A DNA stretch of 64,000 nt. Source: Thermosipho melanesiensis BI429 (GTDB lineage Bacteria > Thermotogota > Thermotogae > Thermotogales > Fervidobacteriaceae). Position 1 is the first letter of the stretch, and each line of letters begins with the position of its first letter. Shown piece after piece: positions 154 to 31,216 of this stretch. The notes below the pieces were generated by a model. That model ran no database searches and was not told the DNA's origin. It worked only from the letters and a program-made list of their open reading frames with translations. The DNA lies in NCBI RefSeq assembly GCF_000016905.1, contig NC_009616.1, positions 1,674,001-1,738,000 on the forward strand, read 5' to 3'. The position numbers were made by a program, and so were the translations under genes.

Positions 154-1705
154 TTGAGAATAGAGAAAGTAAAATTGAACAATTTTAAACAATATAAAAA
201 TTTTGAGATTGAATTTTCTAAAAATGATAATCAAGACAATGATTTTCATGTTATTGTTGCAATACAGGGCGTTGGGAAAAGTAATTTACTTGAATCAATT
301 AATTGGTGTTTATATGGAAAAGAAATATTTGGAAAAATCACAAAACCTACTGATCAAAATGTTTTAAATGATAATTGTAAAAATGAAGACAACATTTATA
401 CTGTAAAAGTAGCATTAAACTTATCAGATGAAAATAAAAATTATTTAATAATAAGAGACTCAAAATTTAAAGTAGCAGAGAAAAAATCTTATTCTTTAAA
501 TGAAAGTCAACTTTCATTTAGTGAAAAAACTGGATTTATTTTAAAAAATCTTGACGCCAAAAAAGAAATTAATAATCTCCTTCCAGAAGACTTAAGAGAC
601 CACTTTTTCTTTAATGGTGAAAGGTTACAAAATTATTTTGATAAAACTCAGGGTGAAAAAATTTCTTTAGTTATTAAAAAAATGTCTGGACTTGATATAT
701 TAGAAAGTTTTAATGACATTTTAGAAAAAATTGAAAACAAATATAGAAAAATGATAAAAGTAAATGATAAAAATATAAACCTAAAAAAAGAATTAGAAGA
801 AGAATTGGAACTTATAAAAACGCAAAAGAAAGAAAAAGAAAATTTGCTTGAAAAATTTTATCTTAATAGAGATAAAGCGAAAAAAGATTTAAATGAAGTA
901 AATCTGAAATTAGACAAATTAAGAGAATATGAACATATAAAAAATCAAATAGATACTTTGAAAGGAAGACTAAAAGAATTGAATAACATGAAAGGTAATA
1001 TTTTAAAAGAAAAAATTCAAAATGTTATTGAGATGGGGACATTAATATTTGGATGGGCAGCAGTTGAAAGAGTTTACCATGAAAATTCTAACATAGATAA
1101 TAATTACGATTATTTACCTCATGAGATAATTAAAACAGCATTAAAAGAAAATAAGTGTCCAGTATGTGAGAAGGAATTAGATGAAAACCACAAAAATATT
1201 TTAGAAAAATACCTTTTATTGGATAAAGATTTTATAATTAGTGCTAAAGATTATCAGGAATTAACTAATCAAGTTAAAGAATCAGAGACAAAGAGAAAAC
1301 GCTTAAATAACCAATTAGGTGAAATTGAAATTAAAATTAATGGTATTAAAGAAGAACTTAAGAGTATAGAAAAAAATATTTCACAAATCCAAACAAATGA
1401 ATTAAATAAATTATATGATCAAAAAAAAAGAACTTGATACTCAAATTGAACAAATAAACCAAAATATAGGAAGTTTTAAAAATCAAATCGAATTTTTTGA
1501 AAAAAAGGAAAAAGAGATAGAAAATAAAATTAAAGAATTAGCTACTCAAGATTCAAAAAAATTTATTAAGAAAATAGATTTTGTCAAAGATTTACGACAA
1601 ATAATATTAAATACAGTTATTAATAGGAAAGAAGAAATTAAAAATGAAATTGTGAATTACATAAAAGAATATTTAGATAAACTGAGGAAACCAATAATAT
1701 GTTAG
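154..1705 (+). pseudogene. Rad50/DndD-like SMC-type ATPase, frameshifted and lacking its C-terminal lobe
   Basis: The N-terminus resembles SMC-like DNA-processing ATPases: a β-strand/NFKQY start, a P-loop ending GVGKSN (about residues 39-44) and the DHFFFNGERLQNYF element typical of DndD-like and AAA_23 proteins. A long coiled coil follows, with a Rad50-type zinc-hook motif CPVC at about residues 335-338. The frame breaks in a run of nine A at 1421-1429, and the return coiled coil continues in another frame from about 1415. It stops at 1705 with no ABC signature or Walker B segment, so the C-terminal ATPase lobe is missing. The P-loop has Ala where the first Gly is usual. TTG at 154 is preferred over ATG at 145 because GGGAG lies at a proper distance from it. 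It is probably a dead gene; a slippage-rescued product would still lack the catalytic lobe. Confidence 0.75.
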
Positions 1706-2106
1706 ATGAGATAATAGATAAATTAAAAGAAAATGGAATCACAAATATAGCAAAAGCAAAGTTATATTTTTTTGCAGGAGCGTATGGATATTTTTATGGT
1801 GAAAGAGAAAAAATACAATCTAATCCTAAAGATGTAGCACGTGTGGAATTATTTGATAAATATGATTATAGAATCTCCAAGATAGTATTAAATAGTATTT
1901 ATCAAAGTCAAAAAAATAATTTAGATGAGAAAATGAATAAATATAGGCTCTTTGAAGAATATGCAAATGTTGGAGTAAAAAAATTGTATGAAATTTTTAA
2001 AAAATCAGAAGACATAGAAGAATTTATTGAAACCATAGAGTTAAAAATAAGCGAAACATTGGAAAAGTTAGGTATTTCTTTAAAGGAGGAAGAAGAAAAT
2101 GAATAG
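1699..2106 (+). CDS. Small helical protein of unknown function in the type III RM operon
   Basis: This 135-residue protein is lysine- and glutamate-rich and mostly helical by composition, with an aromatic patch FFAGAYGYFYG near residue 30. It has no signal peptide or membrane segment. It overlaps the broken ATPase frame by 7 bp and mod by 8 bp, so it sits inside the operon. A specificity, coupling or ATPase-partner role is possible from context, but no family is recognised and none should be assumed. It could also include a fusion boundary left by the deletion that removed the end of the ATPase. Confidence 0.65.
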   Translation: MLDEIIDKLKENGITNIAKAKLYFFAGAYGYFYGEREKIQSNPKDVARVELFDKYDYRISKIVLNSIYQSQKNNLDEKMNKYRLFEEYANVGVKKLYEIFKKSEDIEEFIETIELKISETLEKLGISLKEEEENE

Positions 2107-4639
2107 ATATGAAAAAGAGTTTTATGATGCCTTAAAAGATTTGTTTATTGGAGAAGAAATAGAAGGGAAATCAGGGTATGTAAATTTAATGAGAATAAAA
2201 AGTGCGTATTATACAAAAACAGTTCAAACAGAATTGAAAGAATTGATTGAAGATGAACTAGTAAACAACAACATAGAAGATTTTAGAGAAGAATTATTTG
2301 AAAAGCTATATACTTTTTTTAAAAGATATTTTTCAGATACCGGGTCAATATATTATACATATACACCATGGAGTGAGAGAATATATGAAAGAGTATACGA
2401 CCCAGAAAAAGATGTGATTTTATTTTGGAAAACACACATGTTGTATTATGTAAAAACCGAAAAAAACTATAAAAGTGTTGAAATAAAAATAAAAGGGGCA
2501 AATGGAAAAGAAATAAAATTTTATTTTGATGTATCAGATTTAGAACATCAAAAAGCAAATGAGAAAAAAGAAATAATGTTTGAATTTAAAGAATTTGATA
2601 CCAATAATAGAATAGTATTAAGATGTATATATTCAGAAAGAGGTAGAAAAACAAAGATTGATGAAATCGTAAAACAAGCAAAGGAGTTATATAAGGAAAT
2701 TACTACAGAAGATGTAGAAAAAGCAATAAGGATATTTAATAAACAAAGTGAAGTGGATTATTTTATCAACAAAGATGCAGAAGGATTTTTAAAAGAACAA
2801 CTTGATATGTATGTATATCAATACATGTTTGATTCAGAAAACATTTGGAGTGTAAAAAGAGTAAAAGAAATACAGGTATTTAAAAAAATAGCAAGTAAAA
2901 TAATAGAATTTATTGCCCAATTTGAAAATGAACTTGTAAAGATATGGAACAAACCAAAGTTTGTATTTAACAGTAATTATGTAATAACAATAGATAGAAT
3001 AGTAGAAAAAGAATGTGGGGGCAAAGTGTTAGAAAAAATACTAAATCATGAAAATATAGATAAACAAATAGAAGAATGGAAGGGATTAGGAATAGTTGAT
3101 GATGAATTTAAAATAGAGGAAATATACAAGCAAGAAAGAAATGACTTATTTAGTGAAAAAGGAAAAATAAATGAAAAATACAAATATTTACCAATTGACA
3201 CAAAATATTTCAAAGATATAGAAATAGATATATTAGAATTATTTGATAATTTAGACGAAACACTTGATGGATGGTTAATAAAAAGTGAAAATTATCAGGC
3301 TTTAAATACAATATTACCTAAATTTAGAGAAAAAGTGCAGACGATTTATATTGATCCACCATTTAACAAAGAGCAAGAAGCTGATTATTTATACAAGGTA
3401 GGGTATAAAGATGCTACATGGATAACAATGCTTGAAAATAGAGTAAAGCTTGGAAGAGAAATATTGAACGAAAAAGGAAGTATTTTTGTAAGATGTGATT
3501 ACAATGGAAATATGTATGTAAGAATGATCTTGAATAAGATTTTTGGAGGAGATAATTTTAGGAATGAGATAAATGTTAGCAGAATAAGTAAGCAAGATCG
3601 AAAAGTGAAAAAATTTAATACCGCTACGGATTCACTATATTTTTATTCAAGTTCAGATAATTTTTTCTTTAGATTGCTTTTTAAGAAATTGTTTAAAACT
3701 AAAGGTGAAAGATGGCATGCTATGGACTCTCAGGGTAACGGAAATGCACTCTATATTTTTGGGGTTTTACTTGAACCTCCTAAGGGCCGTCACTGGACTT
3801 ATGGTCAAGAAAATATTAAAAAGATGGAAAAAGAAAAAAGAATTAGAATAAAATGCAAAAAATGCGGTTATAATCATATTGAAGGCGTATGGAAAGGTTG
3901 TCCACAATGCGGAAATAAAAATGATGTAAAGGTAGAGTATTTATTACCTCCAACAAGCGAAAAACAAATCGATTCTAATTGGACAGATATTTCTGGTTAT
4001 ACATCAAACTGGAATTTTTCCACCGAAAACTCTGAAATTCTTTTGAAGCGTGTTATAGAGTCAACCTCCAACGAAGGAGACTTAATTCTAGATTTCTTCC
4101 TAGGTTCAGGCACAACAACAGCAGTAGCACATAAATTAAAAAGAAAATGGATTGGTGTTGAGATGGGAGAACATTTTTGGACGGTGGTTTTACCAAGGAT
4201 GAAAAAGGTTTTATTTTATGATAAATCAGGAATAAGTAAAGAAAAAGATGTTAAAGAAAAATATAATGAAAAAAGCGCTGGAGGTTTCTTTAAGTACTAC
4301 GAACTTGAACAATACGAAAATGTATTGAAAAATGCAAAATATGAACATGGTGATTTAACATTACAACCATCATCAAATAAAGATGTATTTAATGAATATA
4401 TATTTATGAGATCGCCGAAGTTTGTTGAAACGGTTTTAAGAAGGGAAGGAAATGATTACAAAGTTGATTTGTCAAAACTATATCCTGAAAAGGAAATTGA
4501 TATAGTTGAAACTCTATCTAATGTATTAGGAAAGAAGATAAAGAAGATAAGAAAGGAAAGCTTTGAGTTAGAAGATATAGGCGAGATAAGATACGATAAT
4601 ATACCTGTAGAGTATATAAAACCTCTAATTTGGTGGTGA
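2099..4639 (+). CDS. mod: Type III restriction-modification DNA methyltransferase (Mod)
   Basis: This 846-residue DNA methyltransferase has the β-class order: the catalytic motif DPPF lies near residue 418 (context TIYIDPPFN) and the AdoMet motif DFFLGSGTT near residue 665. Enzymes of this type methylate adenine in an asymmetric site and supply specificity to Res. The N-terminal part before DPPF is long (about 415 residues). Between the motifs, where target recognition is expected, are two cysteine pairs, CKKCGY and CPQCGN (about residues 586-604), forming a likely zinc ribbon. AAGGAGG precedes the ATG. The gene overlaps the upstream small gene and lies 4 bp before res. It appears intact. Confidence 0.92.
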   Translation: MNRYEKEFYDALKDLFIGEEIEGKSGYVNLMRIKSAYYTKTVQTELKELIEDELVNNNIEDFREELFEKLYTFFKRYFSDTGSIYYTYTPWSERIYERVYDPEKDVILFWKTHMLYYVKTEKNYKSVEIKIKGANGKEIKFYFDVSDLEHQKANEKKEIMFEFKEFDTNNRIVLRCIYSERGRKTKIDEIVKQAKELYKEITTEDVEKAIRIFNKQSEVDYFINKDAEGFLKEQLDMYVYQYMFDSENIWSVKRVKEIQVFKKIASKIIEFIAQFENELVKIWNKPKFVFNSNYVITIDRIVEKECGGKVLEKILNHENIDKQIEEWKGLGIVDDEFKIEEIYKQERNDLFSEKGKINEKYKYLPIDTKYFKDIEIDILELFDNLDETLDGWLIKSENYQALNTILPKFREKVQTIYIDPPFNKEQEADYLYKVGYKDATWITMLENRVKLGREILNEKGSIFVRCDYNGNMYVRMILNKIFGGDNFRNEINVSRISKQDRKVKKFNTATDSLYFYSSSDNFFFRLLFKKLFKTKGERWHAMDSQGNGNALYIFGVLLEPPKGRHWTYGQENIKKMEKEKRIRIKCKKCGYNHIEGVWKGCPQCGNKNDVKVEYLLPPTSEKQIDSNWTDISGYTSNWNFSTENSEILLKRVIESTSNEGDLILDFFLGSGTTTAVAHKLKRKWIGVEMGEHFWTVVLPRMKKVLFYDKSGISKEKDVKEKYNEKSAGGFFKYYELEQYENVLKNAKYEHGDLTLQPSSNKDVFNEYIFMRSPKFVETVLRREGNDYKVDLSKLYPEKEIDIVETLSNVLGKKIKKIRKESFELEDIGEIRYDNIPVEYIKPLIWW

Positions 4640-4643
4640 AAAG

Positions 4644-7568
4644 ATGGCAAGTAAAACTAAAAGTTTAAGTACAAATATTTACCCACTTTTAATGTCATTT
4701 ATAGATGAAAAGGTACCGATTTTTGAAGAGTTGCCATATGATTGGAGGGAAGTAGATTTAGAGTCATTTTCTGATGCAAAAAGATTATGGGATTTTCAAC
4801 TAGAAGCTTTAAAATATGCAATAAGAGCTTTATACTATTATTATGAAGTTTTAGAAGCAGATAAACAAAAGCTTTGGAATGAACTGGAAGAATATTCTTT
4901 TGATTTAGATATATCATCTATTATGGATATTAAAAAATCAGAAGATGAGATTTGGAAAATCTTGAATAGATATTTTTATGGTGAAAGAGATAAAATACCA
5001 TATAGCAATTTTATAAACAGAATGGGATTTTGGATGGCTACTGGAAGCGGAAAAACGCTGGTTATTGTAAAACTAATTGATATTTTAATAACTTATATGG
5101 AAAGAAATCTTATACCTAAAAGACATATTCTTTTTTTAACATATAGAGACGATCTGATTGAACAATTTAAATTACATTTTAAAGAGTTTAATAAATCCCA
5201 AAGTGGAAAGATTTTAAAATTGTATGAATTAAAAAATTTTAACAATGTTCTTAATTATAAAAGTTTTTTTGAATTTCCGATATTTTATTATCGCTCTGAT
5301 AATATTTCTGATATTCAAAAAGAAAAAATAATCAATTATGAAAATTACGATAATGGTGGAAATTGGTATGTTATTTTGGATGAGGCTCATAAAGGAAGTA
5401 AGGAATCTAGTAAATCACAACAGTATTTTTCAATTTTATCGAGAAATGGATTTTTATTCAATTTCTCTGCAACATTTACAGATGAGAGAGATATTTTAAC
5501 GACAATTTATGAGTTTAACCTTTCTACCTTTATCGAAAATGGTTATGGAAAAGAGATTAGAATTTTTGATGAAAACGTGAAAATAAAAGATAAAAATAAA
5601 GATGATTTTAATGAAAATAAAAAATATATGATTCTTTTAAAAACCTTAATTTTATTAACATATTTGAAAAAGAAGTCAAAGGATTTAAGAAGAAAGCAAG
5701 AACTAAATTTGGAATACCATTCTCCTCTTTCAGTATTTTTAGTAAATTCAGTTAATACCAAAGATTCTGATTTAAAATTACTATTTAAAATAATAAAAGA
5801 AATTACTTCTATAGAAAGTTATGAAAAAATACTAAATTCTGAAATTTTTAAAATGGCAAGAGATAGTGTTATTGAAAACAAACCTATTAATCCCTTTGAT
5901 GAAAATGAAAATTTTTCTGGTTCAAATATTGAGACAAATTATCTATTAGATATAACTCCATTAGATGTATTAAAAGAGGTTTTTAATTCTGAAACTCCTG
6001 GAGAAATAGAAATAGTTAAATCTAAATCCGAAAAAGAATTTGCATTAAAACTTATGACTAGTGATAAACCATTTGCTTTAATAAAGGTAGGAGATGCAAA
6101 AAAATTATTTGATGCTTTGGTTAATGAATTTGAATTAAGAGTTCAAGAAACTTTTGTAGATGAAGATTATTTTTCAAATTTAGATGAAAAGGAATATATA
6201 AATATATTATTAGGTTCAAGAGCGTTCTATGAAGGATGGGATTCAAATAGGCCTAATATAATAGTTTTTATTAACATTGGAACTGGCAACGAAGCAAAAA
6301 AATTTGTTTTACAGTCAGTAGGAAGGGGCTTAAGAGTTCAACCTATTAAAAATGGTGATAGAAAAAGATTAGGAATATCAGCAACATATAGCAAATACAG
6401 AAATTTTATATTGCCTATTGAAACTTTATACGTTTGGGGAACTAAAACAAAAGTAATCAAACAAATTATAGAAAGTACAAAAGAAATAATTAAAAATTCT
6501 GGTATAAAAATAGAACTAAAGAAAAATATTGATAGAATTGATGGACATAAATTATTTGTACCTGCATATAAAAAAGTTAAAAGAGTTGTAGATATTGAAA
6601 AATTGAAAAATGAAGACATTCAGAAATACAATATTAACTGCTCAGATTTCCAGGATACAAAAAATGTACTTGAAAACATTTCTGATGAATTATTGTATTT
6701 CTTTTATTTTTCAAATGAAGATGAACCATTAGAAAAGATAAAACTTTTAAGAGGAATGTTTAAAAAAGAAAATGAAGAAAAGTTTTTCGATAAAAGCGAA
6801 AATAAAAAAAGGTTGGGTTGGCACGATTGTATTAAAGATATAATCAGATTTATAAATAACTATGTAATATTTGAAACAATTCCAGATGTTAAAGAGAATG
6901 AAGAGCCTATAATTCACTACAAAGGAATAAAAATAAGAATACCTAAGGAAGAGGAAATTAATAGAGTTAAAGAAACTATAGAAAAGGTATATAGTGAACA
7001 TTACGAAGAAAAAGTTAGTATAACAGGTAAAGATAGAGATGAGATTGAATTAGATTTTATTAAGGAACATTACTTTATTCCAGTAATAAAAGCCTTAGAT
7101 AGAGAAGTGGTGAAAAGCTTATTAGCTAATATACTTAATGAAAATAGTGAAATACAATTTGTAAATGAATTAAAGAAAAAATCTAATTATTTTGAACAAT
7201 TTGATTGGTGGCTATTTAGTAAAATAGTTCAAAGAATTGATGGTATTTACATTCTATTTACAAATAAGAATGGTATTGAACAAAAATTTTATCCTGATTT
7301 TGTTTTTTGGTTTAAAAAAGAAAATAAGTATCTTATTGCTTTTGTAGACCCAAAATCAACTGAATTTGCAGATGGATATAGAAAAATTGATGGATTTATT
7401 AAATTATTTTACGAAAATAATAAGCCAAAGATTTTTGAAAAAAATGAGTTTAAGATAATTTTTAATTTATATTTGTTCAATAGAAATTTTGGTAGTCCAG
7501 AAAGATATCAAGATTTTTGGGTAAAAAGTATTGATGAATTTGTTAATAAAATAAATAACATTATTTGA
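4644..7568 (+). CDS. res: Type III restriction enzyme Res subunit (helicase-nuclease)
   Basis: This 974-residue protein is an SF2 helicase with a C-terminal nuclease. Visible helicase motifs are ATGSGKT (about residue 131), the DEAH box in VILDEAHKG (about 245), FSATF, and the motif V/VI region RAFYEGWDSNRPNI followed by QSVGRGLRV. Near residue 882 is YPDFVFWF followed by LIAFVDPKS, which fits the PD-(D/E)XK nuclease of Res subunits with Asp in the last catalytic position. It needs Mod for site recognition and cuts after ATP-driven movement. It follows mod directly and forms the intact part of this island. Confidence 0.92.
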   Translation: MASKTKSLSTNIYPLLMSFIDEKVPIFEELPYDWREVDLESFSDAKRLWDFQLEALKYAIRALYYYYEVLEADKQKLWNELEEYSFDLDISSIMDIKKSEDEIWKILNRYFYGERDKIPYSNFINRMGFWMATGSGKTLVIVKLIDILITYMERNLIPKRHILFLTYRDDLIEQFKLHFKEFNKSQSGKILKLYELKNFNNVLNYKSFFEFPIFYYRSDNISDIQKEKIINYENYDNGGNWYVILDEAHKGSKESSKSQQYFSILSRNGFLFNFSATFTDERDILTTIYEFNLSTFIENGYGKEIRIFDENVKIKDKNKDDFNENKKYMILLKTLILLTYLKKKSKDLRRKQELNLEYHSPLSVFLVNSVNTKDSDLKLLFKIIKEITSIESYEKILNSEIFKMARDSVIENKPINPFDENENFSGSNIETNYLLDITPLDVLKEVFNSETPGEIEIVKSKSEKEFALKLMTSDKPFALIKVGDAKKLFDALVNEFELRVQETFVDEDYFSNLDEKEYINILLGSRAFYEGWDSNRPNIIVFINIGTGNEAKKFVLQSVGRGLRVQPIKNGDRKRLGISATYSKYRNFILPIETLYVWGTKTKVIKQIIESTKEIIKNSGIKIELKKNIDRIDGHKLFVPAYKKVKRVVDIEKLKNEDIQKYNINCSDFQDTKNVLENISDELLYFFYFSNEDEPLEKIKLLRGMFKKENEEKFFDKSENKKRLGWHDCIKDIIRFINNYVIFETIPDVKENEEPIIHYKGIKIRIPKEEEINRVKETIEKVYSEHYEEKVSITGKDRDEIELDFIKEHYFIPVIKALDREVVKSLLANILNENSEIQFVNELKKKSNYFEQFDWWLFSKIVQRIDGIYILFTNKNGIEQKFYPDFVFWFKKENKYLIAFVDPKSTEFADGYRKIDGFIKLFYENNKPKIFEKNEFKIIFNLYLFNRNFGSPERYQDFWVKSIDEFVNKINNII

Positions 7569-7595
7569 TAACAATTTTAGTACGAAAGGTTGATT

Positions 7596-8032
7596 ATGTT
7601 CTTTAGACATAATGGTAGAAACAAGGTACTTATTGAGGTTAATAAAAACAATAAAGATTTGGAAAAACACCAGGAACAACTTCTAAATTATTCTTTTTAA
7701 GAAGGAGTAAAATTTGCAATTCTGACCAATGGGATTAGTTGGTGGTTTTATTTACCCTTGCGTGAAAGAAGTTGGAGACAGAGGAAATTTTACACTATTG
7801 AAATATAGGAGTAGATAAAAACAATATTTGATAAAAGAGACACTTCCAAAAGCGTGGAAAAAATAATAACAGAACCAGATGAGCTTTTAGTTGAACTATT
7901 GGCTGATACTACAGAGAAGTTAAGCGGTATGAACCAGACAACGAAGTGGTGGAACAATTTTTGATAAAAATCAATCAAAGAACGGTAACACAGCCTAAAA
8001 AAGAATACAACCACACAAAGGAGGTTGTTTGA
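7596..8032 (+). pseudogene. Remnant of a type I restriction HsdR_N-like nuclease gene
   Basis: Conceptual translation across three frames gives VLIEVNKNNKDLEKHQEQL, a stop, EGVKFAILTNGISWWFYL, then DELLVELLADTTEKLSG and YEPDNEVVEQFL. The IE-x-K, TNG and W-x-FY pattern is typical of the HSDR_N nuclease domain found in type I R subunits and stand-alone relatives. There are an in-frame TAA after NYSF and at least two frameshifts. The last frame ends at TGA 8030-8032, one base before the ATG of mntA. It is a dead gene, and no HsdM or HsdS is visible. Confidence 0.7.
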
Positions 8033-8326
8033 ATGAAAACTTTGAATGAAATTATTAGCATAATAAAGGATTTGAAAAAGGAAATTGAACAGAAATACAA
8101 AGTAGAAATATTGGGAATATTCGGTTCTTTCGCAAGAGGAGAACAGAAAGAAACAAGTGATGTAGATATTCTCGTTAAATTTCATAAAAATGCAACTCTT
8201 TTTGATTTCATAGGACTTTCCATTTTTTTGCAGGAAAAACTCGGTATTGACGTGGATATTGTCCCTCAGGATGCAGTAAGGAAAGAATTGAGAGAAAAAA
8301 TAAACCAAGAGGTGGTTAACATATGA
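8033..8326 (+). CDS. mntA: MntA-family nucleotidyltransferase antitoxin
   Basis: This 97-residue minimal nucleotidyltransferase has the GS motif at residues 31-32 and the metal-binding pair at D43 and D45 (GSFARGE, then SDVDILV), with a third acidic site at DVD near residues 73-75. In the MNT-HEPN family such proteins neutralise HepT by adding AMP groups to a tyrosine. The start follows GGAGG. The stop overlaps the hepT ATG (ATGA), indicating coupled translation. All catalytic residues are present, so the antitoxin looks functional. Confidence 0.88.
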   Translation: MKTLNEIISIIKDLKKEIEQKYKVEILGIFGSFARGEQKETSDVDILVKFHKNATLFDFIGLSIFLQEKLGIDVDIVPQDAVRKELREKINQEVVNI

Positions 8327-8670
8327 GAAGAGACATTAAATTGTATGTCAATGATATCCTCGATGCAATACTTGCAATTGAAAAATTTGTGGAAGGGATG
8401 AATTTTGAGAAGTTTAAGAGAGACGATAAGACCTCAAGTGCTGTAATAAGAAAGTTTGAAATAATTGGAGAAGCAACAAAACATATCCCAGATGAAATAA
8501 GACAAAAGTATCCTAATATACCCTGGAAGGAAATGGCAGGTTTTAGGGACAAGCTCATACATTTTTACTTTGGCATAAAATACGAGCTTGTGTGGAATAC
8601 CATAAAAATCGAACTTCCAGAACTGAAGAACAAAATAGAAAAAGTATTAAAAGAACTTGGTGGGGAATAA
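8323..8670 (+). CDS. hepT: HepT-family HEPN ribonuclease toxin
   Basis: This 115-residue all-helical HEPN protein (DUF86 type) carries the RX4HXY signature RDKLIHFY, with R75, H80 and Y82. R and H form the RNase site of HEPN toxins, and the Tyr is the known AMPylation target of MntA partners. It overlaps mntA by 4 bp. The last 100 bp and the sequence beyond are repeated in decayed form near 31,000, so this module has existed at least twice in the genome. Confidence 0.88.
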   Translation: MRRDIKLYVNDILDAILAIEKFVEGMNFEKFKRDDKTSSAVIRKFEIIGEATKHIPDEIRQKYPNIPWKEMAGFRDKLIHFYFGIKYELVWNTIKIELPELKNKIEKVLKELGGE

Positions 8671-8906
8671 AAATAAGGCATTTACCCAGATAGCAATTTC
8701 ACATTAATTCAAATAAATAGATTTAGTATTGGTGATGTTGAAAAATGACTTACTTATAATTCTTTGGTAACCTTATCGACTGCATTTTATTTAATGAATA
8801 AACATTTAGATTCCAGAAAGATAAGTGCTTGGTACTGGACATGCTGTTTTTGCAGAAAGGTATTCAGGTTCAACTTGGATAAACAATACTAAAAACTTAC
8901 CTAAAG
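8561..8906 (+). repeat. hepT 3' end plus downstream non-coding tract, copy 1 of a duplicated segment
   Basis: From CATTTTTACTTTGGC inside hepT to about AAAACTTACC, this segment matches 30,990-31,216 in the same orientation, with deletions in the second copy. The part after the hepT stop contains a short broken frame reading GHAVFAERYSGSTWINN, present in degenerate form in the other copy. No function is recognised for that frame. Bases 8671-9000 otherwise hold no intact gene. Confidence 0.7.
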
Positions 8907-9000
8907 TTGTTGGACAATTTTTAAATCGACTTTCTAACAATGCTTTTACATTATTTAATGTTAAAAAAAGGTGGAAATTCAAAATATAGAGGTAATTAAT

Positions 9001-9360
9001 ATGAAAATTAAACTTACATTTTATGGACCGTATAAATTGTATGGCAAAAACGAAGAACTTTTATTTGACTCAGATATATCAAAAGACTATGGTATTTATC
9101 TTTGGACAGTAAAATATGAAAATGGGTATCTAGTTGACTATATTGGTGAAACAGGAAGAACATTTTGGCAACGTATGAAAGAACATTTGATAGAAACCTT
9201 CGGCGGAAACTATAGAATATGTGATCCAGAATTACTTTCCAAAGGAAAAGAAAAAATAATCTGGAATGGTCTTTGGCGAAAAGAAACGAGAAATAAAATA
9301 ATTGAATTTATAGATAAAGTTGAATTTCTTGTGCCTTTAATTAAAGAGTACATCAATTAG
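9001..9360 (+). CDS. GIY-YIG nuclease-like protein, probably truncated
   Basis: The 119-residue product carries YGIYLWTVKYENG, then YIGETGRTFWQRMKEHL. This fits the GIY and YIG strands and the catalytic Arg helix of the GIY-YIG nuclease fold. The start at 9001 is chosen because AGAGG lies 7-8 bp upstream; an earlier ATG at 8971 has no such site. After the stop at 9360, another frame continues with RFTKPRNIPDEKIIVEIKSS to about 9470. That suggests a frameshift near the end of a longer protein. The activity is uncertain. Confidence 0.55.
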   Translation: MKIKLTFYGPYKLYGKNEELLFDSDISKDYGIYLWTVKYENGYLVDYIGETGRTFWQRMKEHLIETFGGNYRICDPELLSKGKEKIIWNGLWRKETRNKIIEFIDKVEFLVPLIKEYIN

Positions 9361-12310: not shown

Positions 12311-13606
12311 TCAAAGAATATTTTTAATAATTTTTTCCAGGCTTTCAAGACTGTAATACTTTTTCCCTATCTCAAAATTTTTATTTACTGTATATTCATA
12401 AGATTCTTTGTCAAATAATATTTTGAAAAGTTTATCTGCTGCTTTTTCTATAATATCTTCTTCTACCTTTACAATATTTTCTAACAATTTATAACTGTTT
12501 CCAAGACTTACATATTCAATACCAGATGGCTTTATATCTTTTTCAAAAACTTCGTATTCGAAAAGTACTATAGGTTTTTTTGCTACAATAGCCTCTAAGA
12601 GCTGATTACCCCATCCTTCAAGAATAGATGGATAGGTTATCGCGTCTGCAATGCTGTAAAGATCCCAAAAGCTCCATACCTTATTTTCTACATTTGGATA
12701 TAAATCTATGGTTCTAATTCCATATTTAAAAGCTTTATCTAAAAGTTTATATTTGTACATATCATCTTCACACATTCCAGAAAAAGCAAGAACTATTTCT
12801 CCTGTAAATTTTTCACCGTTATAAAGTAACTTCCCAACATAATTCTTTGCCTTTTTTTGCATGTTTGATATGAGATCTATAGCTAATTCTATAGCTTTTC
12901 TTTCAGTAATTCTTGTAGCTTGTAATAGTACAATAGCTCCCGTTGAAATATTATAACTTTCCCTTATTTTTAAATTAGTTTCCTTTTTGACAAAAGCCGG
13001 GGCTTCAAAATCCATGACATTTGGAACAACTACAGAATCAACCTTTTTCCTTGAAAATAGCGCATGTTTTGCAAAAGTGTTTATAACAAGATGTTTTATA
13101 TTTTCAGCTGTTGGAGGACAATATTCTTTAAGGAGTTCTATAATCTTTGAAGTAGTAGCATTTAAAAAATATTTCCTTTCCCACCAAAAATCATGATGAT
13201 GTCCTATAAAAACTTTATTTGCGTTGTTTTTTGCATACTTAGTAAAGGCTATAGCAGACGGTAAAAACGCTCCAATTGACCAAATATTATTTGGGATTAT
13301 CACATCGTATTTTTCAAAGATTGGTTCAATGTCAATGTATATTTTTTCGCTCTCTTTAAATATTTCATTAATTAATTCGTCTGGTGTAAAATTTTCAAGT
13401 TTTTCAAACGCATTTCTATTGATAATCTCATACTTTGGATTTTCGAAACCTATAGATTGAATCTGTATATCTACTCCTTTTTCATTGTTCCCGGCCACTA
13501 TATCAACATTGTGTCCGAGTTTGTTTAATACTTTTTTCCATTTTTCCATCTCAAGTGAAACACCATCCATTAGCCCTGCTCGATAATGCACAAGTGCAAT
13601 GTTCAT
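12311..13606 (-). CDS. GT4-family glycosyltransferase, copy A
   Basis: This 431-residue retaining glycosyltransferase has a GT-B fold. The N-terminal domain contains HYRAGLMDG near the start and the unusual stretch GHHHDFWWERKYF. The C-terminal donor-sugar domain has YPSILEGWGNQLLEA, the E-x7-E region of GT4 enzymes. It is cytoplasmic and presumably transfers a sugar onto an acceptor linked to the substrate of the adjacent transporter; donor and acceptor are unknown. The ATG overlaps the ATPase stop. The close paralogue is at 28,886-30,187. Confidence 0.85.
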   Translation of the reverse strand: MNIALVHYRAGLMDGVSLEMEKWKKVLNKLGHNVDIVAGNNEKGVDIQIQSIGFENPKYEIINRNAFEKLENFTPDELINEIFKESEKIYIDIEPIFEKYDVIIPNNIWSIGAFLPSAIAFTKYAKNNANKVFIGHHHDFWWERKYFLNATTSKIIELLKEYCPPTAENIKHLVINTFAKHALFSRKKVDSVVVPNVMDFEAPAFVKKETNLKIRESYNISTGAIVLLQATRITERKAIELAIDLISNMQKKAKNYVGKLLYNGEKFTGEIVLAFSGMCEDDMYKYKLLDKAFKYGIRTIDLYPNVENKVWSFWDLYSIADAITYPSILEGWGNQLLEAIVAKKPIVLFEYEVFEKDIKPSGIEYVSLGNSYKLLENIVKVEEDIIEKAADKLFKILFDKESYEYTVNKNFEIGKKYYSLESLEKIIKNIL

Positions 13607-14703
13607 AAGCTCATCTCCAATCTTTTTTTAGTATCAATATCAAATAACATTATACGTTCATAATCGAGTGTTACGTGAATTACTTCATCAGCATTATATT
13701 TTGGAAAAGCAGGCGATACAATTTTTACAATTTGCTCACCAAGTTCAATAGCTATTATCTGGTGAGAACCTTGTGGTTCAACAACTAATATTTTTTCTGT
13801 GAAAATTGCTTCAGACTTATTATCTGTGATCTTTAAATTCTCTGGTCTTATTCCAACAATCAAATGAGACTTACCATATTTTTCAATAATCTTGTTTAAT
13901 TTTTCAATAACAGGTATTGAAATGTACCGATTTTCTAAATATAATTTTTGATTTTTTTGAACTACCTCCATTTCAAAAAAGTTAGTTGGTGGTGTTCCGA
14001 TAAAACCAGCAACAAAAACATTCGCACTATTGAAATAAACATCATCTGGTGTTCCTACTTGTTCAATGTGACCATCTTTCATAACAACAATTCTATCTGC
14101 CATAGACATTGCTTCAGATTGATCATGCGTAACAAATATTGTAGTAGCACCTGTTTTATGATGAATAGCCTTAAGTTCTGTCCGCATTTTTACTCTCAAT
14201 TTCGCATCAAGATTAGACAAAGGTTCGTCCATAAGAAAGATTTTAGGTTTTACAGCAAGCGCTCTTGCAAGAGCAACTCTTTGTCTTTGCCCTCCAGAAA
14301 GTTGAGATGGATACCTACTTAAATATTCTTCTATTTTAACCATTTGTGAGACTTCGTGAACAGTTTCATCAATCTCATTTTCAGGCAATTTTCTGAGTTT
14401 CAAAGGAAATGCTATATTTTCATAAACCGTCATATGCGGCCACACAGCATAACTTTGAAACACCATACTAACTTCCCTTTTTCGCGGTTCTAAATAAGTT
14501 ACATCCTGGTTGTCAATCAAAATCCTTCCTTCTGTTACTTCTTCCAACCCTGCAATCATCCTTAACGTTGTTGTTTTTCCACATCCAGAAGGGCCTAAAA
14601 GAACTATAAACTCTCCATCGTTAACTTTCAAATTAACATCTTTTGCTCCCCATACTTTTTTACCGTATCTTTTTGAAAGATTTATAAGCTCAAGTGTCGC
14701 CAT
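13603..14703 (-). CDS. Sugar ABC transporter ATPase (MalK/UgpC type), copy A
   Basis: This 366-residue ATPase has Walker A GPSGCGKT (residues 37-44), Q-loop MVFQSYAVWP, signature LSGGQRQRVALARAL, Walker B FLMDEPLSNLD and the switch His in VTHDQSEAM. A C-terminal TOBE/MalK regulatory domain follows, including VGIRPENL. It energises uptake through the two permeases encoded upstream. It is complete and near-identical in its core to copy B at 27,789-28,886. It overlaps the glycosyltransferase gene by 4 bp. Confidence 0.93.
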   Translation of the reverse strand: MATLELINLSKRYGKKVWGAKDVNLKVNDGEFIVLLGPSGCGKTTTLRMIAGLEEVTEGRILIDNQDVTYLEPRKREVSMVFQSYAVWPHMTVYENIAFPLKLRKLPENEIDETVHEVSQMVKIEEYLSRYPSQLSGGQRQRVALARALAVKPKIFLMDEPLSNLDAKLRVKMRTELKAIHHKTGATTIFVTHDQSEAMSMADRIVVMKDGHIEQVGTPDDVYFNSANVFVAGFIGTPPTNFFEMEVVQKNQKLYLENRYISIPVIEKLNKIIEKYGKSHLIVGIRPENLKITDNKSEAIFTEKILVVEPQGSHQIIAIELGEQIVKIVSPAFPKYNADEVIHVTLDYERIMLFDIDTKKRLEMSL

Positions 14704-14747
14704 ATTTCACCGCTCCTTTTATCATTATTTTTTAACATTATTTGAGA

Positions 14748-16028
14748 TTAAACACGTACTCCGCCCCACATTTGAAGAATATATTTTCTTATTATCATAG
14801 TAAATACTACAGCAGGTAACGCTAACGCCACACCACCTGCAGCTGTAAGGTTAATTAAACCTTTTGCACCAACAAGCGTTTGATATACCACAACTGGAAA
14901 CGTTGGGTTAAATTGTGTCAAAACTATTGCCTGGGCAGTTTCAGCCCAACTTCCAATGAAAGCATACATTGCACTTGCAGCAAGTCCAGGTAATGCAAGA
15001 GGCAATGTTACCTTAAAAAACGCGCCACGTCTTGTAGTTCCAAATATCATAGCTGCTTCCTCTAATTCTACAGGAATTCCCATAAATATGCTTGCAGTTA
15101 TCCAGACTGTCATACCAATTTGGCCAACAGAATACACCAAAGATAATCCTATTGGTTTATCGTAAAATCCCATATTTATAAGTATTATAACCATAGGCAT
15201 TGCTATTGAAATTCCTGGAAACATTCTTACAAAAAGAACACTTAATTTCAATAAATTTTTCCCTCTGAAAGAATATCTCGCAAATGCATAACCTGCCATT
15301 CCTCCTATACTAAGCGAAATAACAACAGTTAAAATTGCAACCTCTATACTTCTAATTAAAGCAGGTAAAGCATCACTTGTAACTCTGAAAAAATTTATAT
15401 AATTATCAAAAATATTTTTGGCTACATTAAAATGAACAGCTCCAATTTCATCTAACTCTTTTATTACCTTTTCTAAATCTTTTTCAAACTCACTTTTTTT
15501 CTGTTCATTACTTTCTATCTGTTTTTTAATCATATCTATAAATTCTTGCATATTAGCTTTTTCAGCTATTTCCAACTGACTTTTAAGTCTCACCGTTTCA
15601 ACAGTTAATCTATTAATTTGCCTTTTTATTTTGTCCCTTTCGCTTCTTAATAATTCAATTTTATCTTTGTTTTCCAAAATTAATTGTTTTAACTTTTTTA
15701 CTTGAGCCTCAAATAACTCCTTTTTTATTGTTGAATTAGTTTTGTTACGTACAAATTTTTGGATATCTTCAAAACTCGAAGACTGTTTTATAGTAACATA
15801 ACTTTTTTTTGCAGCACTGTACACACTTATTAAAAATTCGTTGTCTATCATTTCCAACTTAAACTTATTAAAAAAGCTCGGAATCATTTGAGTAGGCCAG
15901 TCATATGCTTCTTGATCAGACATAAAGGAGATAGTTACAAGAAAATAAATTGGCGTAAGAATCACCAACACAATACTAGCAACAACTATATAAAAAAGTG
16001 TTTGCTTTATTATCTTTGCAACTTTCAT
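14748..16028 (-). CDS. ABC sugar permease, MalG type, with a coiled-coil insertion, copy A
   Basis: This 426-residue inner-membrane permease has a first membrane helix at about residues 12-35 and a cluster of five helices from about residue 225. The EAA loop ELEEAAMIFGTTRRGAFFKV contacts the ATPase. Between the first two helices lies an insertion of about 150 residues, Lys/Glu-rich with heptad-like spacing (about 60-215). It is expected to project outside the membrane. MalG proteins are usually about 280 residues. The insertion has diverged far more from copy B than the membrane part. It overlaps the MalF-type gene by 1 bp. Confidence 0.9.
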   Translation of the reverse strand: MKVAKIIKQTLFYIVVASIVLVILTPIYFLVTISFMSDQEAYDWPTQMIPSFFNKFKLEMIDNEFLISVYSAAKKSYVTIKQSSSFEDIQKFVRNKTNSTIKKELFEAQVKKLKQLILENKDKIELLRSERDKIKRQINRLTVETVRLKSQLEIAEKANMQEFIDMIKKQIESNEQKKSEFEKDLEKVIKELDEIGAVHFNVAKNIFDNYINFFRVTSDALPALIRSIEVAILTVVISLSIGGMAGYAFARYSFRGKNLLKLSVLFVRMFPGISIAMPMVIILINMGFYDKPIGLSLVYSVGQIGMTVWITASIFMGIPVELEEAAMIFGTTRRGAFFKVTLPLALPGLAASAMYAFIGSWAETAQAIVLTQFNPTFPVVVYQTLVGAKGLINLTAAGGVALALPAVVFTMIIRKYILQMWGGVRV

Positions 16029-16897
16029 TATTGTTCCCCCTTCTCAAATGCACCAGACACTTTTAAATAAATCACAGAAACAATAGATACAATTATCGAA
16101 ACTATAACAGAGTAAGCTAACGCCACTCGATAAAATCCTAATAATTGCTCTTCATAAAATACTACCTCTTCAAGAAGAACAGGAATTCTTCTATAACCAA
16201 ATATCATAACTATTATTAACCAAACCTGAATAGCTGAAATAATTCTTAATATCAGTGCTGTTTGAATACTCGGCTTGAGCATAGGCAAGGTTATTTTTCT
16301 AAGTACTGTAAATTTTGTTCCACCGAATATATATCCAGCTTCAATTGCTTCTTTCGAAAGACCTTGAAGTCCAGCAAGAAGAATAACCATCATAAAAGGA
16401 ATAACTTGCCACGCATCAATAAGAATTATAAGCATCAACGACTGAAAATCACTTCCTGCAAGAAAAACTATTTTATTATCAGCAGATATAAGCCCTAAAT
16501 GATAAAGCAGACTATTTACCCAACCATACGTTGCAAAACCACTTGACCACATAGCACCTACGGCGACTGCAGGAAGCGCCATAGGAATTAACGCAATTGA
16601 CAATAACAACTGAGCACCTTTAAATTTTTTGTTTATAATCAGCGCAAGACCCAGCGCCACCAAAAATTCAAGTGTAACTGAAATGACAACAAAAATCGCT
16701 GTATTTATAACAGCTTTTTTAAAGTTAGGATCTCTAAATATAGTTAAATAATTATTCAAAGTAAATATATTACTTTCATCAAAAAAACTGTAAACTACTG
16801 CTGAAATAACAGGCCTAAGCCAGAAGATTATATAATAAATGATAGTTGGAGCAATCAAAATGTAAGGTATCCATTTTTTAGTTTCCGCATTATTCAA
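16028..16897 (-). CDS. ABC sugar permease, MalF type, copy A
   Basis: This 289-residue permease has six predicted membrane helices and the EAA motif EAGYIFGGTKFTVLRKITLP, which couples to the ATPase. The start codon is TTG at 16897, with AGGTGG upstream; copy B also starts with TTG, supporting the choice. It forms the transmembrane channel with the MalG-type partner. It follows the binding-protein gene after a GC hairpin. Confidence 0.92.
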   Translation of the reverse strand: MNNAETKKWIPYILIAPTIIYYIIFWLRPVISAVVYSFFDESNIFTLNNYLTIFRDPNFKKAVINTAIFVVISVTLEFLVALGLALIINKKFKGAQLLLSIALIPMALPAVAVGAMWSSGFATYGWVNSLLYHLGLISADNKIVFLAGSDFQSLMLIILIDAWQVIPFMMVILLAGLQGLSKEAIEAGYIFGGTKFTVLRKITLPMLKPSIQTALILRIISAIQVWLIIVMIFGYRRIPVLLEEVVFYEEQLLGFYRVALAYSVIVSIIVSIVSVIYLKVSGAFEKGEQ

Positions 16898-16946
16898 AGG
16901 CAGTCACCACCTCTATTTATAATTGCTCTTCTCTTTTTAAAATAAA

Positions 16947-16961
16947 GGGGGCAACGCCCCC
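16947..16961 (-). terminator. Intercistronic GC hairpin after the binding-protein gene, copy A
   Basis: GGGGGC, loop AAC, GCCCCC, followed on the - strand by TTTATTTT. Copy B has an equivalent hairpin in the same place. Such hairpins often act as a partial terminator or 3' stabiliser that raises binding-protein mRNA over permease mRNA. Confidence 0.65.
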
Positions 16962-16971
16962 TTAAAATTTA

Positions 16972-18180
16972 TTATTTTTTGAGGCTGTTAATTTTTATCT
17001 GGTAGAATTCAAGAAGATCAGGCTCGAATCTTTTATCTTGAAGAATCATTTTCTTGAATATTTCATCATAAACAAGTTTCACCTGTCCCCAATCTTTCCA
17101 TGTAGGTGCGATATAAGACAAGACACCTTCTTTTAATACTTTAATAGCATTCTTTACAACTTGATCTTCTATATCATCACCAAGATAGTTAATTGCTTCA
17201 TCAACAGGTGGGATAAATCCTCCAGTACCCTTGTGTGATTTCAAAATTATATCTGGTCTTGTCATGTATTCAAGGAACTTAAGAGCAAGGTCAAAGTGTT
17301 TTGTACCTTTGACAATGGCAAGTCCACTTGTTCCGGCAACTGAACCTCTTCCAGCTGGTCCTTTTGGTGCAGGAGCAATGATAAACTGTGTTGGATTGCT
17401 CTTGTACACTTCTCCCACACGAGCAGAATGAGCAACTGTCATCCATGTTTCTTCTCTTTTCATAGGTGGTCTTGTATCATCATATGTTTGAACCGCTGGA
17501 GCAAATGCATCTTTCATCTTATAAACAAGATACCATGCTGCAACAGCTCCAGGATTATCAAGATTTGGCCAGTTGCCCCCATAAGATAATGTTATTGCAC
17601 CAATTTGGTAAATAAGAGATTTCATCGGAACACCTGTAACAGCGAATTTACCTTCGCCCTCACCTTGAGCTACAAGATTTGCCCACTCAGCTAACTGCTC
17701 CCATGTAATATTTTCTATGTCTACATCTTCTGGTTTATATTGTAAAGCTTTTTTGTTGATTAATGTTAAATAAACATCTGCGCCAACTGGTAAGAAATAC
17801 CTCTTTCCATCAAATACTGTCATTGTGTCAAAACCTTTTGAGAAAGTTCTATCTGTTCATTTAGAAACATATGGAGTAAGATCGACTACATAACCTTTTT
17901 CAACCCATTCTGGCATTTTTGAAGCATAAACTATTACAACATCTGTTGTAATTTTTCCTGTCTGCTCCTGAACAGCTACTTGTTTTAAAATAGACTCATC
18001 ATCCATTGTCTGGAATACAACTTTTACGTTGTACATTTCCTCAAATGGTTTAATGATCTCGTTGATAATAAACTCCTTTTCTGTTGGCGGTGTCCAAAGC
18101 CTTGAAGTAACAACCAACGTTTCTACACTAAAAGCAAAAACAATCGTTAAAATAAACAATGCAATAAGTACCTTACGCAT
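16972..18180 (-). pseudogene. Sugar ABC solute-binding protein, copy A, interrupted by a nonsense codon
   Basis: The full frame would encode a 402-residue family 1 binding protein with a signal peptide (MRKVLIALFILTIVFAFS). It matches copy B (24,350-25,558) along its length. At 17,857-17,859 an in-frame TGA replaces the TGG of copy B, in the context TPYVSK-stop-TDR versus TPYVSKWTDR. Both flanking parts are otherwise open and highly conserved, so this is a single-base lesion or a sequencing error. The first 107 residues alone cannot bind ligand. Confidence 0.85.
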
Positions 18181-24349: not shown

Positions 24350-25558
24350 ATGAAGAAATTTCTTGTTGGGTTGTTAACACTTATTTTCATTGTATCTTTA
24401 GGTGAAACTACACTTGTTGTCAGTTCTAGGCTGTGGACACCACCTACAGAAAAGGAGTTCATAATCAATGAAATAATTAAACCATTTGAAGAAATGTACG
24501 GTGTGAAAGTTGTTTTTCAGACAATGGATGATGAAACTATGCTAAAACAGGTAAAAATTCAAAGTGAAACTGGTAAAGTTACTACTGATGTAATAATTGC
24601 ATATGCAACGAAAATGCCAGAGTGGGTAAAGAATAATTTGGTTTTAGATTTGACCCCATATGTAAGCAAATGGACAGATAGGCACTTCTCAAAAGGTTTT
24701 GATTCTATGACAGTGTTTGATGGAAAAAGATACTTTTTACCAATTGGTGCAGATGTATATTTAACGTTAATTAATAAAAAGGCTTTAAAGTACAAACCTG
24801 AAAATGTTGATATTGAAAATCTTACCTGGGAGCAACTCGCAGAATGGGCAAATTTAGTTGCACAAGGTGAGGGAGAAGGAAAATTTGCAGTTACAGGTGT
24901 CCCAATGAAATCGTTGATTTATCAAGTAGGTGCAATTGCTTTATCATACGGCGCTCATTGGCCAGATTTAGATAATCCAGGTGCAGTTGCCGCTTGGTAT
25001 TTGGTATATAAAATGAAAGATGCATTTTCTCCTGCTGTAAAGACATATGATGATACAAGGCCACCAATGAAAAGGGAAGAAACTTGGATGACAGTTGCTC
25101 ATTGTGCTCGTGTTGGTGAAGTTTACAAAAGCAATCCGACTCAATTTATAATTGCGCCAGCGCCAAAAGGTCCTGCGGGTATTGGCTCAGTAGCAGGAAC
25201 AAGTGGACTTGCAATTGTAAAAGGAACAAAGAATTTTGATCTTGCGCTTAAATTTGTTGAATATATGACAAGACCCGATATAATGGTTAAATCTCATAAA
25301 GGAACTGGAGGTTTTATACCACCTGTTGATGAAGCGGTTAAATATCTCGGTAACGAAGATCAAGATTTGGTTATTAAAAACGCAATTAAAGTTATGAATC
25401 AAGGAGTACTTTCATATATCGCACCTATTTGGAAAGATTGGGGTCAAGTAAAATTAGTATATGATGAATTGTTTGATAAGATGATACTTGTAAAAGAAAC
25501 TTTAGATATTGACATGCTTGAACTATATCAAATGCAAATTGATGCTCAAAGAAAATAA
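24350..25558 (+). CDS. Sugar ABC solute-binding protein, copy B (intact)
   Basis: This 402-residue family 1 solute-binding protein has an N-terminal signal peptide (MKKFLVGLLTLIFIVSLG). The mature part has the usual two-lobe features, including YLTLINKKAL and GTSGLAIVKGTKNFD. It captures the substrate outside the membrane for the MalF/MalG-type permeases. The start at 24350 follows AAAGGAGG; a GTG two codons earlier is not needed. Comparison with copy A shows strong conservation, except for the nonsense codon there. The ligand is not predictable from sequence. Confidence 0.92.
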   Translation: MKKFLVGLLTLIFIVSLGETTLVVSSRLWTPPTEKEFIINEIIKPFEEMYGVKVVFQTMDDETMLKQVKIQSETGKVTTDVIIAYATKMPEWVKNNLVLDLTPYVSKWTDRHFSKGFDSMTVFDGKRYFLPIGADVYLTLINKKALKYKPENVDIENLTWEQLAEWANLVAQGEGEGKFAVTGVPMKSLIYQVGAIALSYGAHWPDLDNPGAVAAWYLVYKMKDAFSPAVKTYDDTRPPMKREETWMTVAHCARVGEVYKSNPTQFIIAPAPKGPAGIGSVAGTSGLAIVKGTKNFDLALKFVEYMTRPDIMVKSHKGTGGFIPPVDEAVKYLGNEDQDLVIKNAIKVMNQGVLSYIAPIWKDWGQVKLVYDELFDKMILVKETLDIDMLELYQMQIDAQRK

Positions 25559-25564
25559 ATTATG

Positions 25565-25583
25565 GGGGGCATAGTTTGCCCCC
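25565..25583 (+). terminator. Intercistronic GC hairpin after the binding-protein gene, copy B
   Basis: GGGGGC, loop ATAGTTT, GCCCCC, then TTACTATT. It sits in the 50-bp gap before the MalF-type gene, at the same place as the copy A hairpin. It is likely a partial terminator or RNA stabiliser. Confidence 0.65.
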
Positions 25584-25608
25584 TTACTATTAAGAGAGGT
25601 GATATAAT

Positions 25609-26478
25609 TTGCAAAAAATTTTATCTAAGAAGATGATTCCATATATTTTAATCACTCCAACTTTGATTTATTATTTAATATTTTGGTTAAGACCTGTGAT
25701 CTCAGCAATCTATTACAGTTTTTTTGATGAAAATAATGTATTTACTTTAAATAACTATGCAATGATTTTTAAAGATCCATATTTTAAAGAAGCATTGATT
25801 AACACAGCTATATTTGTATTGGTTTCCGTTACGCTGGAGTTTGTAATTGCTCTTGGTCTTGCATTAATTATAAACAAAAAATTTAAAGGTGCACAGATAC
25901 TATTATCAATAGCTCTAATTCCAATGGCTTTACCAGCAGTTGCAGTTGGAGCAATGTGGTCAAGTGGTTTTGCAACGTATGGCTGGGTTAACAGCCTTTT
26001 GTATCATTTGGGAATTATTACAGAGAATGGAAAAATTGCATTTCTTGCGGGAAGTGATTTTCAATCATTAATGCTTATTATTTTAATAGACGCGTGGCAA
26101 GTTATACCATTTATGATGGTAATACTCCTTGCAGGACTTCAAGGACTTTCGAAAGATTCTATTGAAGCAGGGTATATATTTGGAGGCACTAAATTTACTG
26201 TTCTAAGAAAAATTACTCTTCCAATGTTAAAACCTAGTATCCAAACTGCTTTAATTTTAAGGATAATTTCTGCTATTCAAGTATGGTTAATAATAGTTAT
26301 GATTTATGGATATAGAAGAATTCCAGTTCTTTTAGAAGAAGTTGTATTTTATGAAGAGCAACTGTTGGGATTCTATAGAGTTGCCCTTGCATATTCTGTC
26401 ATTGTAGCAGCTATTGTTTCAATTGTATCAATAATTTATTTGAAAGTTTCTGGTGCGTTTGAAAAGGGGGAACAATAA
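25609..26478 (+). CDS. ABC sugar permease, MalF type, copy B
   Basis: This 289-residue permease has six hydrophobic helices and the EAA loop EAGYIFGGTKFTVLRKITLP, identical to copy A in this region. It starts at TTG (25609) after GAGAGGTGA. It forms the substrate channel with the following gene, which it overlaps by one base. Confidence 0.92.
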   Translation: MQKILSKKMIPYILITPTLIYYLIFWLRPVISAIYYSFFDENNVFTLNNYAMIFKDPYFKEALINTAIFVLVSVTLEFVIALGLALIINKKFKGAQILLSIALIPMALPAVAVGAMWSSGFATYGWVNSLLYHLGIITENGKIAFLAGSDFQSLMLIILIDAWQVIPFMMVILLAGLQGLSKDSIEAGYIFGGTKFTVLRKITLPMLKPSIQTALILRIISAIQVWLIIVMIYGYRRIPVLLEEVVFYEEQLLGFYRVALAYSVIVAAIVSIVSIIYLKVSGAFEKGEQ

Positions 26479-27758: not shown

Positions 27759-27788
27759 AAAAAATAAATTTTAAAGGAGAGATGATAT

Positions 27789-30989: not shown

Positions 30990-31216
30990 TTTTTACTTTG
31001 GCTTAAAATACAAACTTGTGTGGAATACTAAAAAACTTGGAAGGGAATAAAAATAAATCATTATAATTCATTGGTACCCTTATTGATTGGATTTTATTTA
31101 ATGAATAAATATTTAGATTTTAGAAAGATAGGTGCTTGGTACTGGAATGTGTTTTTGCAGAAAGGTATTCAGGTTCAATTTGGATAAGCAATAATAAGAA
31201 CTTACCTATTGTTTTT
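30990..31216 (+). repeat. Decayed copy 2 of the hepT-tail segment
   Basis: The segment begins with ATTTTTACTTTGGC, as inside hepT, and continues with CTTGTGTGGAATAC and GGGAATAAAAATAA. It then has TTTATTTAATGAATAAA, GTGCTTGGTACTGG and GCAGAAAGGTATTCAGGTTC, all in the order found at 8561-8906. Internal deletions remove the rest. No functional hepT or mntA remains here. Bases 30,871-31,311 otherwise contain no gene. Confidence 0.75.

Follow-up and report, generated by a model that had tools for sequence, protein, structure and literature searches.

A decayed pbeABCD cassette joined to type III mod and res genes in Thermosipho melanesiensis

At the left end of a 64,000-nucleotide stretch of the Thermosipho melanesiensis BI429 genome (the window; bases 1674001–1738000 of a genome that forms one contig of 1,915,238 bases), the mod and res genes of a type III restriction-modification (RM) enzyme are preceded by genes for a zinc-hook ATPase and for a 135-residue protein. 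This arrangement raises the question of what the first two genes are and whether they act together with the type III enzyme. A preliminary description of this DNA proposed that in intact relatives the four genes may form a defence system, in which the ATPase senses or loads DNA. We used family profiles and comparisons with related loci to address this question, which identify the ATPase as PbeC and the small protein as PbeD, the two genes that end a cassette of the antiviral pbeABCD type already known, and reveal a conserved unit of six genes rather than four. The explanation that we favour as a whole, with a probability of roughly 0.65, is that the locus represents a decayed six-gene defence cassette wherein a Pbe effector is coupled to a type III mark.

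The genes preceding mod belong to a pbeABCD cassette

The genes for the ATPase, the 135-residue protein, Mod and Res are all carried on the + strand in the order first noted. This order stands, but the locus as first described is incomplete, because the operon has two earlier genes, pbeA and pbeB, upstream, and the 135-residue protein is incomplete at its N terminus. The upstream DNA was covered as locus L002, such that a window position equals the L002 position minus 12000. A gene for a 698-residue protein (L002:9833–11929), which resides wholly upstream of the window and runs in the same direction as the downstream genes, matches PbeA in PADLOC with an E value of 9e-225. The protein carries ResIII and Helicase_C domains and an HxK...D motif at residue 149, and also matches the NCBIfam model TIGR04095 ‘DNA phosphorothioation system restriction enzyme’ (E 2.4e-115, below the curated cut-off). 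Fifteen bases downstream lies an open reading frame (ORF) for 67 residues, which starts 55 bases before the window and ends at position 148 (1–148 in the window, + strand). This ORF exhibits 71–80% identity in three relatives, and its assignment to PbeB is made by position, without a family model.

The end of pbeB overlaps the start of the ATPase gene (145–1705) by 4 bases. Translation of the ATPase most likely begins at the ATG at 145 rather than at 154, given that the resulting MIILRIE agrees with how intact homologues begin. In PADLOC the ATPase is PbeC, with an E value of 6e-152 for the first reading frame (model positions 1–424 of 610) and 2e-24 for the second (model positions 423–510). 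The 135-residue protein (1699–2106, + strand), formerly regarded as unknown, belongs to the NCBIfam family TIGR04062 ‘DNA phosphorothioation-associated protein 4’ (PbeD), which it matches with an E value of 1.1e-6, below the curated cut-off. Moreover, a profile of its family aligns with a profile of eight proteins that occupy the PbeD position in haloarchaea, Lactiplantibacillus and other bacteria (hhalign probability 95.9, E 5e-9). Structure models of PbeD, with a mean predicted local distance difference test score of 57 and 46, are too low in confidence for a fold search.

The PbeABCD system described by Xiong 2019 (PMC6459918) comprises a PLD-Res-helicase, a 66-residue protein, an SMC-like protein and a 152-residue protein. 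The order of genes at the T. melanesiensis locus is the same, and the ATPase, 135-residue protein, mod and res genes thus constitute the second part of a longer operon. The likeness to the published systems (PMC6459918, PMC10853773) extends to each component, namely an HKD-type superfamily 2 (SF2) helicase, a protein of 60–70 residues, a zinc-hook ATP-binding cassette (ABC) ATPase and a partner of ~150 residues. Based on these sequence matches, we regard the identities of the genes in a pbeA-pbeB-pbeC-pbeD-mod-res cassette as nearly certain. The locus differs from the published systems in that mod and res, which together encode a full type III RM enzyme, share the operon and dndC is missing from the genome. 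Furthermore, the HKD nuclease domain is missing from PbeA in three of the seven loci described below, and both pbeC and pbeD are broken in the window.

Another known system with an SMC-like zinc-hook ATPase is Lamassu, whose LmuB protein resembles the ATPase described here. Membership in Lamassu was ruled out by the scores (E 1e-18 for the LmuB model versus 6e-152 for PbeC) and by the neighbouring genes, which are pbe genes.

PbeC has lost its C-terminal lobe in T. melanesiensis

The ATPase had been described as frameshifted and lacking its C-terminal lobe, and both features are confirmed by comparison with the intact locus L013 of the same genus, whose ATPase is 65% identical. The frame shifts within a run of nine A nucleotides (1421–1429, + strand), where L013 has eight; the first frame spans positions 145–1437 and the second 1415–1705, and no further frame change is observed before the end of pbeC. 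A deletion of ~430 bp, with its junction at 1679–1692 on the + strand, then fuses pbeC codon ~513 to pbeD codon ~12. This deletion takes out two regions present in every intact copy, the ABC signature (LSGGERS) and Walker B (IDRPL), along with ~12–20 residues from the start of PbeD that include the ILRL-type region. Intact ATPase homologues are 646–663 residues long and, as had been suspected, continue past the break point, running on with the LSGGERS and IDRPL motifs. PbeC of the window reaches only position 510 of 610 in the PbeC model, and does not include both lobes.

Because PbeC is left without its catalytic lobe and PbeD without its N terminus, the Pbe arm is dead in T. melanesiensis. 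Mod and Res of the same copy keep their catalytic motifs, and the type III enzyme alone should still function, in agreement with the suggestion made in the preliminary description.

The location of the shift exactly within a homopolymer run could also indicate a slippage switch, whereby PbeC is produced in a shortened form that still functions. However, the deletion has removed the ABC signature, the Walker B lobe and the beginning of pbeD, such that restoring the frame does not give a complete ATPase, and we consider a switch of this type highly improbable. A programmed frameshift that rescues PbeC is ruled out by the deletion of the C-terminal lobe.

Six genes are conserved as one block in Thermotogota

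Among 103 Thermotogota genomes surveyed, ATPase matches occur in seven. The 135-residue protein is found in the same seven genomes, and three additional weak matches (best E 2e-4) lack these neighbours. All seven genomes carry pbeA-pbeB-pbeC-pbeD-mod-res in one order as a compact operon, with pbeC complete in five. The four genes of the preliminary description therefore adjoin in every ATPase-bearing genome, which fits the proposed four-gene system, with an ATPase that would load or sense DNA on behalf of the type III enzyme. Nevertheless, pbeA and a pbeB-type ORF are always located directly upstream in the same operon, and pbeABCD is already established as a four-gene unit elsewhere. Thus, a unit made of the ATPase, the 135-residue protein, mod and res is ruled out by the constant presence of pbeA and pbeB, and a functional four-gene system of this composition is very unlikely.

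The seven copies vary in some details. In three loci (L015–L017) the pbeB position is occupied by an ORF of 71–90 residues and PbeA is devoid of the HKD nuclease domain that is present in the other four. Gene junctions measured in four intact loci vary between gaps of 30 bases and overlaps of 44 bases; in the window, the pbeD ORF overlaps mod by 8 bp and a gap of 4 bp separates mod from res. Flanking genes are common only to L015 and L017, from two species in a single genus, except for an isolated gene that L012 and L013 share. The near absence of shared flanks indicates that the six genes have moved together.

Also consistent with joint inheritance is the fact that pairwise identities of PbeA, PbeC, PbeD and Res co-vary (r 0.97–0.99), as do those of the first 400 residues of Mod with these four proteins (r 0.94–0.97). 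These correlations are drawn from 21 non-independent pairs and indicate common descent, not function. Finally, a profile scan of the genome contigs with the PbeC alignment yielded only two loci. One of these, L029 from the metagenome-assembled genome (MAG) GBS-1, retains pbeA′ (92%) and pbeC (86%), and a deletion runs pbeC into the end of res. Judged from these remnants, L029 is a further decayed copy of the cassette.

The type III enzyme and its probable mark

Mod (846 residues; 2099–4639, + strand) is a beta-class methyltransferase, with DPPFN at residue 419, DFFLGSG at residue 665 and a variable region between them, such that the target recognition domain (TRD) resides between motif IV and motif I. 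The protein matches EcoP15I Mod and other Mod proteins in the PDB. Res (974 residues; 4644–7568, + strand) is an SF2 helicase with a C-terminal PD-(D/E)XK nuclease motif. GSGKT/S, DEAH and PD..VDPK are present in all seven copies, and the Pfam ResIII domain is matched with an E value of 5.6e-16.

A type III system of T. melanesiensis BI429 named TmeBIV was previously predicted to generate N4-methylcytosine (m4C) at the site CGCC (Murray 2021, PMC8259958, Table 4), and mod and res of the window are probably TmeBIV. For FnoB1III of Fervidobacterium nodosum Rt17-B1, which also has the site CGCC and the mark m4C, Mod is inactive in Escherichia coli unless Res is co-expressed (PMC8259958). The m4C subgroup that contains FnoB1III and TmeBIV most probably includes the very same mod and res, together with their F. 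nodosum homologue. The earlier work differs in presenting FnoB1III as a standard pair of genes, with no mention of the pbe genes immediately before it (PMC8259958). It would seem that an operon of six genes, absent from that paper, contains what was published as a ‘two-gene’ type III system. No avoidance of CGCC is seen in the window, where 42 sites are present versus 28 expected.

The Mod protein of genome G070, which we take to be F. nodosum, is 84% identical to that of the window, with 77% identity in the TRD. Genome G112, presumably Desulfurobacterium thermolithotrophum, the source of the Res-dependent enzyme DthLIII, carries mod and res without pbe genes. The need for Res therefore appears to be a trait of this Mod/Res clade rather than of Pbe.

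Three-gene type III systems represented by BspHIV and Eco86II (PMC8259958) resemble the cassette in carrying an extra helicase-like ATPase gene 5′ of mod and res. In a likely example of this type from an E. coli plasmid, the SNF2-related protein matches PbeA only weakly (E 0.002), and neither PbeC nor PbeD is annotated.

A possible methyl mark in place of phosphorothioate

The same A-B-C-D order of pbe genes is observed in other phyla and in archaea. Plasmids of haloarchaea and of Lactiplantibacillus, as well as KSB1 and other genomes, carry pbe genes without type III genes; some of these loci adjoin dnd genes, and two have other N6/N4-type methylases after them. The association of the ATPase and small protein with type III genes, on which the preliminary description was built, is therefore mixed: PbeC followed by a PbeD-type protein stands with type III genes in Thermotogota and away from them in haloarchaea, Lactiplantibacillus and KSB1.

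More than half of the known PbeAC pairs lack phosphorothioation genes nearby (PMC6459918). Since many pbeAC loci in the literature are solitary, the phosphorothioation partner dndCDEA is not strictly required. A base-modifying enzyme is encoded within 10 kb in 155 of 320 solitary PbeAC loci, and a pairing with methylation was suggested (Xiong, PMC6459918); cytosine methylases were also reported by Rakesh (PMC10853773). The joining of pbeABCD to type III mod and res is undescribed in the literature on Pbe and type III systems that we covered, although the supplementary tables of PMC6459918 lie outside this scope and the locus may stand there.

A DndC profile is negative in all seven cassette genomes and positive in both control genomes. 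A canonical Dnd modification system is therefore ruled out by the absence of the DndC sulfurtransferase from the genome, and a dnd-type phosphorothioate is unlikely to serve as the mark in the cassette genomes. This leaves the linked Mod as the sole candidate source of a self mark in these genomes.

Site specificity appears to reside in Mod alone

The TRD, taken here as residues 480–640 of the window Mod, is of differing types across the seven loci, and TRD identity shows no relation to identity in PbeD (r 0.02) or PbeC (r 0.08). For example, L016 and L017 have a common TRD type (70%) whereas their PbeC and PbeD proteins are only ~30% identical, and L015 and L017 are 61% identical in PbeD and 43% in the TRD. 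pbeC is intact in all three loci, and it is on these loci that our conclusion on specificity rests. We infer that the methylated sequence is set by the Mod TRD, which shuffles independently of PbeC and PbeD, and that PbeD does not read the site methylated by Mod.

A natural swap of the Mod catalytic and TRD core (residues ~420–720) is observed in L014 (G079:C5, mod at 6102–8684 on the minus strand). Relative to L013, the Mod core is 10–45% alike, whereas PbeA, PbeC, PbeD and Res are 90–94% alike. The swapped core is much nearer to N6-methyladenine-type Mod proteins of known structure (6k0w, E 8e-61 versus 3e-13 for the window Mod). However, pbeC of L014 carries a single-base frameshift. This confounds the swap as proof that Pbe ignores the site, and it was set aside for that purpose.

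Coupled function or two independent systems

In intact relatives, Mod and Res would mark the host genome by methylating one strand and could cut unmarked DNA in the manner of type III enzymes. In the F. nodosum homologue, the modified base is N4-methylcytosine within CGCC, and Mod is active only when Res is present (PMC8259958). A complex of PbeC and PbeD, comprising a coiled-coil ABC ATPase and its small partner, may scan or clamp DNA and, with the SF2 motor PbeA, block or attack DNA that lacks the mark. The methyl group would thereby fill the role that phosphorothioate has in the PbeABCD system studied so far. Given that specificity appears to lie in the Mod TRD and not in PbeD, Pbe would have to sense the mark indirectly (through Mod or Res) or need no fixed sequence in order to act.

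On balance we lean towards functional coupling of pbeABCD with mod and res in intact relatives. A more specific proposal is put forward tentatively: that the six genes encode a single machine, in which PbeABCD uses type III N4-cytosine (or N6-adenine) methylation as its self mark, the sequence is set wholly by a swappable Mod TRD, and Pbe serves as an all-purpose effector attached to the type III enzyme.

The strongest rival holds that a solitary pbeABCD set and an ordinary m4C type III RM system occupy one operon and travel together without cooperating. Several observations suit this rival, and weigh against the coupling that we favour. Related mod and res genes without pbe are found in ~20 other loci (within the ~9 kb or so examined), including those of Athalassotoga, a Rhodothermus plasmid, two other Thermotogota and sixteen further genomes, just as pbe genes occur without the type III pair. 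In E. coli, F. nodosum mod and res methylate the DNA with no pbe genes present (PMC8259958). pbeC has decayed twice beside intact mod and res (in the window and in L014, two of the seven loci), which indicates that Pbe is dispensable for RM. Other points weigh against the favoured explanation more generally. All linked cases come from one bacterial family and one MAG fragment, and the linkage may represent a single ancient event. The scores for TIGR04095 and TIGR04062 both fall under their curated cut-offs. PbeD was placed in the DndE family as a DndE cognate with two ribbon-helix-helix domains (Rakesh 2024, PMC10853773), and our profile comparison of PbeD with four DndE sequences gave no significant match.

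Independence is nonetheless harder to reconcile with the linkage in all seven genomes to the same Mod clade, the overlapping genes, the movement as one block and the parallel divergence of the components. It would also leave a solitary Pbe set without a known mark, as phosphorothioation genes are missing from the cassette genomes. We therefore regard two non-cooperating systems as plausible but less likely than coupling.

Coupling of the six genes would bear on a question raised previously (PMC6459918), namely whether solitary PbeAC pairs work, and which mark distinguishes self from non-self. The pairing suggests a DNA mark by which a ‘solitary’ pbe set may recognize its own genome. For the homologue of the partner enzyme, both the site (CGCC) and the mark (m4C) are published, and its methylation depends on Res in a way not yet explained, which makes the question directly testable with clones that already exist. 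The window copy itself offers only a degraded example of the cassette.

Neighbouring genes

A restriction-type gene with GmrSD_N (DUF262) and DUF4268 domains is located upstream of pbeA (L002:7485–9743, or 4.5 to 2.3 kb before the window start) and is split by an in-frame TGA. This gene was not found adjoining the pbe cassette in relatives. Two degraded partial copies of the DUF262 gene reside in the window, one at 8701–9010 (76% DNA identity over 351 aligned positions) and another at 31062–31213 that is detectable at the protein level only, which suggests past recombination around the locus. Farther upstream, two ORFs match Cas6 models (L002:1229–2555), indicative of a defence-rich region.

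Just 3′ of res, positions 8033–8670 encode a toxin-antitoxin pair composed of an MntA-like nucleotidyltransferase and a HepT-like RNase. An ORF for 129 residues follows at 8971–9360, whose product appears by eye to be GIY-YIG nuclease-like (YGIYLW...YIGETGRTFWQRMKEHL) and has no Pfam match. Finally, a four-gene cluster of ABC transporter and glycosyltransferase genes is present twice (12360–17883 and 24647–30132) as an inverted repeat of 5.5 kb, the copies of which are ~7 kb apart and exhibit 73.5% DNA identity and 64–89% protein identity.

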